64,000 nt of DNA from an uncultured Clostridia bacterium (GTDB taxonomy: Bacteria; Bacillota; Clostridia; Oscillospirales; Feifaniaceae): contig CALWCA010000004.1 in NCBI GenBank assembly GCA_944376235.1, forward strand, positions 62,001 through 126,000, in the 5' to 3' direction. The notes under the pieces were generated by a model. It searched no databases. It was given only the letters and a program-made list of their open reading frames with translations, and was not told where the DNA came from. Both the position numbers and the translations under genes were made by a program. Positions 58,731-61,092 of the stretch are shown piece after piece. Within the stretch, counting starts at the first letter, position 1, and each line of letters opens with the position of its first letter.

Positions 58731-58757
58731 CAGGACGGGTTCATGCACAGGTTATGA

Positions 58758-58786
58758 GGGCAGGCGACGAGTCGCCTGCCCTTTTT
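58758..58786 (+). terminator. Terminator after the HPr gene
   Basis: Perfect 10-bp stem (58758-58767 with 58772-58781) around CGAG, then five Ts. Confidence 0.9.
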
Positions 58787-58824
58787 GAGCTGTATGAGCG
58801 CATACCGGAGGAAAGGAGGGCCCT

Positions 58825-61092
58825 ATGGCGGACCGGAAAGAAGCGGCGCGTCCAAAGACGCAGCCGGAAGGAGAGGCCGATGCGCCGGCAGTGGCGGCTC
58901 CCGCAAGGGGAGAAGTGCCGGGGGAGGCGGCTGCCGGAGAGAACGCGGCGCGGGGGAGAAAAGCGCCCGCCGGAGGGGCCGCGCCGGCGCACAGGGAGGC
59001 GGCAGAGGCCGGGGGAAAAGAGGCGCCGCCGGCTGTGGCAGCCCGCCAAAGGGGGCCGGTGCGCGGAGAAAGCACAGCCGCAAAAGAGAGGGCTTTAAGG
59101 CAGGAGATGCCTTTTCGGGAGGCCGCGCCGGCGGGGCAGCAGCCGAGGAGCGAGACGGCGCCCGGGCAAGAGCCGACCAAAGGGGGTGCCGGGGCAGCTT
59201 CCAAAGACGCTGCGGGTGAGAATTTTGAGCAGCGTCTGCTGCGGCTGCGCCGCAAGGCGCGTGCGCTGCCCCTGCTGCCAGGCGTCTATTTCATGAAAAA
59301 TGCCGAGGGGAAAATTATCTATGTGGGCAAGGCCAAGGCGCTGCGCAACCGCGTGTCGAGCTACTTTGTAGGCGTTGAGAGCCATACGCCCAAGGTGGCC
59401 TCCATGGTGGCGCAAGTGGCCGATTTTGACACCATCATCACGGCCAACGAGCTTGAGGCGCTGGTGCTGGAATGCTCGCAGATCAAGCAGTATATGCCCC
59501 ACTACAACATCCTGCTCAAGGACGACAAGAGCTATCCCTACATCAAGGTGACGGTGAAGGAGCCCTATCCGCGCGTGACGCTCACCCGCCGCCGGGAGGA
59601 GGACGGCAGCCTCTACTTCGGGCCGTACAGCGGCAGTGTCAGGGACGTGGTCTCGACCATTCAAAAGACCTTTCTTCTGCCCTCGTGCAGCCGCGTGTTC
59701 CCGCGCGACATCGGCAAGGGCAGGCCCTGCCTCAACGCCGCCATCAAGACCTGCATGGCGCCTTGCTCGGGCAAGGTGACGCAAGAGCAGTACCTTGAGG
59801 CGGTGGACGAGGCGGTGGCCTTTCTGGAGGGAAAGCAGGGCGACCTGGTGAAGGAGCTGTCAAAGCGTATGGAGCAGGCTGCCGAGCAGCTGCGCTTTGA
59901 GGAGGCGGCGCGGCTGCGCGACCGTCTGCAGGCGCTGCAAAAGCTCGAGCAGGGCCAGAAGGTGGTGGATGCGCCAAATGTGCAGCGCGATGTCATCTGC
60001 CTGCGCTTTGACGACAAGAACGCCGCCGTGGTGGTGCTCACCATCCGAAACGGGCGGCTGACCCTGGCAGACAGCTTCCTCTTTGAGCGGACCCAGCTCG
60101 AGCCGCCGGAGGCCGGCATGTCGGCCTTTGTCAAGCAGCACTACCTGCAGCGCACCGACATCCCGCGCGAGATTTTGCTCTCGGTGCTGCCAGACGAAGC
60201 GGACCTGCTCGAGCAGTATCTCACGGGCAGGGCGGGGCGCAGGGTGCATCTGCGGGTGCCGCAGCGCGGCGAGGCGCGCCGCGTGCTGGAGCTTGCCGAG
60301 CGCAACGCGGAGCAGAGCCTGGCCCGGCTGTCCGACCGCGAGGAAAAGGTGCGCCGGGGCGTGGCCGAGCTGGGCGCGCTGACCGGGCTGGCACAGCCGC
60401 CGCGCCGCATCGAGGCGGTGGACATCTCCAACACGAGCGGCAGCGAGGTGGTGGGCGGCATCGTGGTCTTCGTGGACGGGAGGCCCTCCAAGAAGGACTA
60501 CAAGCGATACAAAATCAAGACCGTGGAGGGGCAAGACGACTACGAATCCATGCGCGAGGTGGTGTGGCGCCGCATGCGGCGCTTCCAGAAGGGGGAGGCC
60601 GGCTTTGAGACGCTGCCGGACCTGCTGCTGCTCGACGGCGGCAAGGGGCAGCTCTCGGCCGTCCGGGAAATTCTCGATGAGCTTGAGATTGACATTCCCG
60701 TCTTCGGCATGGTCAAGGACGACAGGCACCGCACGCGCGGCCTGGTGGGCGAACAGGGCGAAATCACGCCGCGTCCCGTCAGCCCGGCATTTGTGCTGCT
60801 GGCCCAGATCCAGGAGGAGGTCCACCGCTACGCCATCGCTTACCACCGGGCGCTGCGCGGGAAAAAGACCTTCTCCTCCCAGCTTTCCAATATCCCGGGC
60901 ATTGGCAAAGCCCGGGCTGCGGCGCTGCTCTCGGAGCTCAAGACGCTTGACGCAATCAAACGGGCCGCGCCGCAGGAGCTGGCCGGGGTGCCGGGCATGA
61001 ACCGGGCGGCGGCGCAGGCCGTGTGGCAGCACTTCCACGGGGAAATTTCACAAAATATGGAAGATGTTGACCAAACGGGCAAAAGCAAGTAA
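58825..61092 (+). CDS. uvrC: Excinuclease ABC subunit C with long N-terminal extension
   Basis: A 755-residue UvrC (typical length about 600). The GIY-YIG nuclease begins only at LPLLPGVYFMKNAEGKIIYV (about residue 148); the UVR motif lies around 345-375, the RNase-H-like domain at about 420-640 (VDISNTSGSEVVGG), and helix-hairpin-helix motifs at the end (IPGIGKARAAALL). The first 145 residues are low-complexity Ala/Gly/Glu/Lys/Arg-rich sequence. The ATG at 58825 has GAGGAAAGGAGGG upstream; no good internal start precedes the nuclease domain, so the extension is likely translated. Confidence 0.92.
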   Translation: MADRKEAARPKTQPEGEADAPAVAAPARGEVPGEAAAGENAARGRKAPAGGAAPAHREAAEAGGKEAPPAVAARQRGPVRGESTAAKERALRQEMPFREAAPAGQQPRSETAPGQEPTKGGAGAASKDAAGENFEQRLLRLRRKARALPLLPGVYFMKNAEGKIIYVGKAKALRNRVSSYFVGVESHTPKVASMVAQVADFDTIITANELEALVLECSQIKQYMPHYNILLKDDKSYPYIKVTVKEPYPRVTLTRRREEDGSLYFGPYSGSVRDVVSTIQKTFLLPSCSRVFPRDIGKGRPCLNAAIKTCMAPCSGKVTQEQYLEAVDEAVAFLEGKQGDLVKELSKRMEQAAEQLRFEEAARLRDRLQALQKLEQGQKVVDAPNVQRDVICLRFDDKNAAVVVLTIRNGRLTLADSFLFERTQLEPPEAGMSAFVKQHYLQRTDIPREILLSVLPDEADLLEQYLTGRAGRRVHLRVPQRGEARRVLELAERNAEQSLARLSDREEKVRRGVAELGALTGLAQPPRRIEAVDISNTSGSEVVGGIVVFVDGRPSKKDYKRYKIKTVEGQDDYESMREVVWRRMRRFQKGEAGFETLPDLLLLDGGKGQLSAVREILDELEIDIPVFGMVKDDRHRTRGLVGEQGEITPRPVSPAFVLLAQIQEEVHRYAIAYHRALRGKKTFSSQLSNIPGIGKARAAALLSELKTLDAIKRAAPQELAGVPGMNRAAAQAVWQHFHGEISQNMEDVDQTGKSK

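Follow-up and report, generated by a model that had tools for sequence, protein, structure and literature searches.

An ordinary UvrC with a long, probably repeat-grown N-terminal tail in an uncultured Clostridia bacterium

The DNA analysed here, hereafter the window, is a stretch of 64,000 nucleotides from contig CALWCA010000004.1 of an uncultured gut bacterium of the Clostridia (family Feifaniaceae; assembly GCA_944376235.1). Near its end, on the forward strand, lies uvrC, an open reading frame at 58825-61092 that begins with ATG and encodes 755 amino acids. An in-frame TGA is found upstream at 58795, and no stop occurs within the frame. In the window genome (G000) and in four relatives (G001 to G004) uvrC is preceded by the same gene, which we take from its sequence to encode an HPr-like protein. 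The features of the locus, in positions of the window, are as follows.

58756-58786, + strand: strong, terminator-like hairpin in the gap from the HPr-like gene to uvrC, with 12 pairs (GAGGGCAGGCGA / TCGCCTGCCCTT) and a trailing run of T; folded in four species
58807-58820, + strand: Shine-Dalgarno region GGAGGAAAGGAGGG, read from the sequence; duplex -12.4 kcal/mol, with matching sites in G002, G003 and G001
58825-59232, + strand: low-complexity segment at the UvrC N terminus (codons 1-136), from start distance and composition; modelled at pLDDT 32-39, free of secondary structure through residue 133
58882-58989, + strand: repeat unit, copy 1 (codons 20-55), from protein-level self-comparison
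59026-59133, + strand: second, decayed copy of the unit (codons 68-103), agreeing with the first at 17 of 36 residues, a score reached by 0 of 2000 shuffles
59059-59061, + strand: GTG in frame at codon 79, a candidate internal start whose Shine-Dalgarno site is the best of the internal ones; duplex -10.9
59107-59109, + strand: final ATG in frame ahead of the domain (codon 95), a weak candidate internal start that is absent in G002; duplex -7.3
59233-61092, + strand: normal UvrC including the stop codon (leading helix, GIY-YIG domain, four-Cys region, UVR motif, RNase H-like domain, HhH), from Pfam, TIGR00194, structure matches and alignment

The protein matches the UvrC family model TIGR00194 with 560.7 bits, against a curated cut-off of 285.45, and five Pfam domains, each above its own cut-off, follow one another in the canonical order: PF01541 (GIY-YIG) at residues 153-227, PF02151 at 341-373, PF22920 at 388-501, PF08459 at 519-671, and PF14520 at 686-732. 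Across 29 aligned UvrCs the invariant positions include Y155, Y166, K169, R176, Y180, E216, and N228 on the GIY-YIG side, D533, D604, and H667, and the four cysteines C288, C302, C310, and C314. Catalytic roles in both nuclease domains are presumably held by residues of this invariant set; the UvrC mutants Y19F, Y29F, Y43F, and N88A appear in the titles of structure entries. In Foldseek comparisons the core falls on solved UvrC domains. Compared with standard bacterial UvrC (TIGR00194; 1ycz, 1yd6, 2nrt, 3c65, 8b0q), the window protein has all domains and conserved residues, but its GIY-YIG domain is preceded by some 135 additional residues: residue 4 of 1ycz, the solved GIY-YIG domain of Thermotoga maritima UvrC, pairs with residue 140 of the query. 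The sequence-only reading had recognized a long low-complexity N-terminal extension on UvrC, and Pfam, the 1ycz alignment, composition, and start distance all bear this out, although its count of about 145 residues was slightly high. The protein is thus a complete, ordinary UvrC with a lineage-specific tail that is predicted to be disordered. By analogy with its family, the core presumably works with UvrA and UvrB in nucleotide excision repair, making the normal two-sided incision.

An N-terminal extension has been described for the UvrC-related Bacillus-II GIY-YIG proteins; in that description (PMC1564403) they are remote paralogues that have lost the C-terminal segment. The window UvrC does not belong with them, as its C-terminal half is present.

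Over codons 1-137, the span used for tail statistics, the extension consists largely of 38 Ala, 17 Glu, 17 Gly, 15 Pro, 14 Arg, and 7 Lys. Hydrophobic residues make up 7% of the tail versus 33% of the core. Of 206 called genes (~289 kb of the genome), nine contain a stretch of 60 residues in which hydrophobic ones account for no more than 12%; the uvrC tail is tied for the least hydrophobic such stretch, and several of the other genes look secreted, membrane-bound, or of doubtful start. AlphaFold2, run with 29 sequences, gave pLDDT values of 32-39 and no secondary structure over roughly the first 130 residues; in the model a helix follows at 134-146, and the UvrC core is confidently predicted. 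The low values in the tail are due partly to the near-absence of aligned sequence and not to disorder alone. The disorder suggested earlier is thus upheld as a prediction. Pfam and NCBIfam returned no domain or family match in about the first 136 residues, and Rfam returned none around the uvrC start. The open frame over 137 codons survives in 26% of dinucleotide shuffles of the tail sequence and is therefore by itself no evidence for the tail.

The comparison drew on four genomes from the genus of the window and on eight from its family; G001, G002 (“Candidatus Galloscillospira excrementipullorum,” DVNV01000055.1), and G003 belong to the same genus as the window genome, and G004 to a sister genus. 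The distance from the start to the LLPGVY motif is 149 residues in G000, 129 in G002, 49 in G003 (TTG start), 24 in G001, and 17 in G004, so that intermediate tail lengths exist within a single genus. G000 and G002 have in common the ATG start codon, the frame, and the repeat unit, and their tails are similar. A AAAGGAGG-type Shine-Dalgarno sequence lies directly upstream of the uvrC start in G000, G002, G003, and G001, and in the window the modelled anti-Shine-Dalgarno duplex at ATG 58825 (-12.4 kcal/mol) is the best of six in-frame candidates before the GIY-YIG domain. These results favor translation from the extended start behind a strong ribosome-binding site, as originally proposed. The first 41 nucleotides of the coding sequence are identical between G000 and G002; at 0.16 changes per site this has a chance of about 0.0008, for a run length picked after inspection, and it would fit a constraint on the initiation region. 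The alignment, together with the matching Shine-Dalgarno sites, leads us to infer that the start is homologous and that the tail was not gained by capture of an upstream start: the ancestral start would have been kept, and DNA inserted downstream of it, ahead of the GIY-YIG domain.

The terminator-like hairpin upstream has the same 12 pairs in G000 and G002, and folding gave similar hairpins in G003 and G004; it is absent from the list of the pattern scan. Its T-run ends about 20 nucleotides before the uvrC Shine-Dalgarno site. Since the promoter scan found no site between the hairpin and the start, uvrC expression may depend on read-through or attenuation at the hairpin.

Within the tail, a 36-residue unit occurs twice. 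The two copies in the window share 17 of 36 residues, a score that none of 2000 residue shuffles matched. In G002 the two copies lie 132 nucleotides apart and are 97% identical across 107 nucleotides, with 35 of 36 residues the same, and all four copies align without gaps. Tandem Repeats Finder (TRF) reported no array in the tail segment of the window, and the DNA self-match of that tail is no better than chance (28 of 100 shuffles reach it), so the duplication in G000 is visible only in protein-level comparison. Searches of the window's own genome found no donor for the tail, either as protein (best other E value, 0.006) or as DNA (best other E value, 0.0019, over 38 bases). Four records of a plasmid collection gave short matches, all from query position 719 or beyond, inside the domain, and none to the tail.

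Substitutions were compared between G000 and G002. For the proximal tail (59 aligned codons), dN is 0.182, dS 0.192, and omega 0.95 (bootstrap, 0.41-2.6), versus a dS of 0.161 and an omega of 0.11 (0.06-0.19) for the core (618 codons), which is 97% identical between the two. Mismatches at the three codon positions are even in the tail (12/8/9) and concentrated at third positions in the core (11/10/72). Aligned end to end, the whole tail has an omega of 0.52 (0.34-0.80), below 1, with a doubtful alignment in the distal half (dS 0.63). Between the two copies in G002 there are three silent changes and one amino acid change; the resulting omega of 0.13, from these tiny numbers, could be a sign of constraint. 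Codon usage in the tail is poor by the standards of this genome. Its score is -1.297 versus -0.859 for the core, as low as in only 2.1% of 578 genome windows, and none of its 17 Gly codons is GGC, versus 57% across called genes. Its purine content is attained by just 0.2% of 585 windows. The tails of G002 and G003 are likewise poor in codon usage score and rich in purine. A recent expansion of G/C-rich sequence, one of the two origins first put forward, thus gains support from the tandem repeats, the lineage-restricted length, the non-native codon usage, and the fast amino acid change.

A survey placed the tail among UvrCs at large. A uvrC match was obtained in 379 of 394 genomes of the order and in 292 of 299 genomes of a phylum sample. 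By assigned starts in 66 distinct UvrC loci, a subset of which several were picked for long open frames and from which L046, lacking the motif, was left out, most proteins have 13-33 residues before PGVY versus 151 in the window. A start close to the GIY-YIG domain is thus usual, though not strictly defining, for UvrC, and the window protein departs from it. Six of the 66 start more than 40 residues before PGVY: the window, G002, G003, G053, G035, and L087. We judged the last to be an artefact, with its best-scored start at 107 and ATG starts present at 16 and 18. Further candidates among the chosen longest frames of the order were mostly upstream sequence in frame or run-ons past a stop, and the same holds for the longest frames examined from the phylum sample (12 loci) and for G012. 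One locus, L121 (G610), possibly has a moderate tail of maybe 46-66 residues. The number of extended UvrCs is accordingly an "at least" figure, among the matches listed for order and phylum.

The uvrC of G053 (L094:102-2276; family f6, genus g10) encodes 725 residues, with a Lys/Glu-rich tail of ~110 residues before a normal UvrC. It resembles the window protein in having a long, charged, low-complexity tail, but the window tail is rich in Ala, Gly, Glu, and Arg, the two tails do not match each other, and the G053 tail looks independent. Within its genus, too, length is graded: the motif is preceded by 43 residues in the sibling G035 and by 37 in the sibling G012. Our search of the literature (titles and the starts of abstracts) found no paper on an extended or disordered UvrC N terminus.

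Low-complexity tails occur elsewhere in the genome. A gene that we take from its sequence to be Lgt (L099:833-2107 in G000:C4; L133 in G002) encodes an Ala/Pro/Gly/Glu-rich C-terminal tail, which is matched over its full length in G002, while the matches in G001, G003, and G004 end 28, 54, and 68 residues sooner. In G002 it includes a perfect tandem repeat of 14 residues (two copies). Lgt differs from UvrC in being a membrane enzyme extended at its C-terminal end; both tails are of low complexity and tandemly repeated in G002. Because of the Lgt repeat, tail growth by duplication is not peculiar to UvrC in these two species. Apart from these, the product of L102:1698-4076, presumably P-type ATPase-like, has several N-terminal tandem Cys/His units of the type CGCGHDHGHGHGHEH, and its first ~110 residues are unmatched in G003 and G001. 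L104:5304-7919 encodes an 872-residue membrane protein with a hydrophilic, charged N-terminal part of ~300 residues.

The best explanation as a whole, to which we assign a probability of about 0.75, is an ordinary UvrC whose N terminus was lengthened by an inserted, repeat-grown, little-constrained disordered tail. Given the repeats in both species and their common start, we would reconstruct the events as follows. The ancestral start codon was probably separated from the GIY-YIG domain by an insertion of purine- and GC-rich DNA. The insert would have grown largely as a unit of ~44-48 codons was duplicated in tandem and in frame, with point changes then driving the copies apart. In G002, renewed duplication or homogenization may have come after an earlier duplication and decay. 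The conservation of the start site and the lack of alternatives near the domain suggest that the tail is translated. With a sequence so little constrained, it would most likely be at most a passive flexible bristle on the enzyme, and it looks tolerated rather than clearly useful.

It is possible, but we consider it unlikely, that the tail is instead a selected disordered segment that tunes UvrC, by binding DNA or a partner (UvrB, SSB, RNA polymerase) or by shielding, with composition and length mattering rather than sequence. Extensions of 114-151 residues before PGVY evolved twice in the order with unlike composition (Ala-Gly-Glu-Arg in G000 and G002, Lys-Glu in G053), the whole-tail omega lies below 1, and eukaryotic glycosylases are described as DNA repair enzymes in which disordered tails have roles (PMC9266487). 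On the other hand, the net charge of the tail, +1 in G000 and -2 in G002, offers no net positive charge for DNA, in the comparison of these two genomes no motif is conserved past residue 15, G001 and G004 manage without a long tail, and G000 and G002 have also extended Lgt, a membrane enzyme. The DNA- or partner-binding role raised by the sequence-only reading consequently finds no positive support in the near-zero charge, the lack of a motif, or the family searches. A broader version, in which the UvrC N terminus repeatedly takes up composition-driven disordered tails, and these tune excision repair through length and disorder rather than sequence (e.g., via effects of spacing or crowding where UvrB is in complex with DNA), as in two independent lineages of one order, strikes us as rather improbable.

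Translation from an internal start, either GTG 59059 or ATG 59107, would leave a tail of about half the length or yield two forms, and we hold the odds of this to be slim. The duplexes at the two codons (-10.9 and -7.3) and the 661-residue product from ATG 59107 are compatible with it. It is opposed by the stronger site at ATG 58825 (-12.4), of the same kind in G002, G003, and G001; by the absence of ATG 59107 from G002, whose internal candidates lie at other places; and by the first 41 nucleotides, which are unchanged between species while the remaining tail varies. Most homologues do start at the domain, as the sequence-only reading had allowed in naming an internal start as its refutation, but such a start near the domain is contradicted in the window sequence, where in-frame ATG, GTG, and TTG are all absent between codons 95 and 157. 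An assembly artefact or frame error can be given next to no credence: the genus genomes compared are all fragmented (70-410 contigs in the three relatives, 22 in the window genome), yet two genomes of different species have the start, frame, and unit in common with cores 97% identical, and the segment contains no in-frame stop.

On the preferred reading of a lengthened, ordinary UvrC, the window protein would provide a clean case of a core bacterial enzyme gaining a long disordered tail, with the start kept, a unit duplicated in frame, the copies decaying, and evolution running nearly free. Start-site pipelines that trim such genes to the domain would err here. If the tail is useful after all, UvrC would become a test case for a sequence-independent function of disorder.
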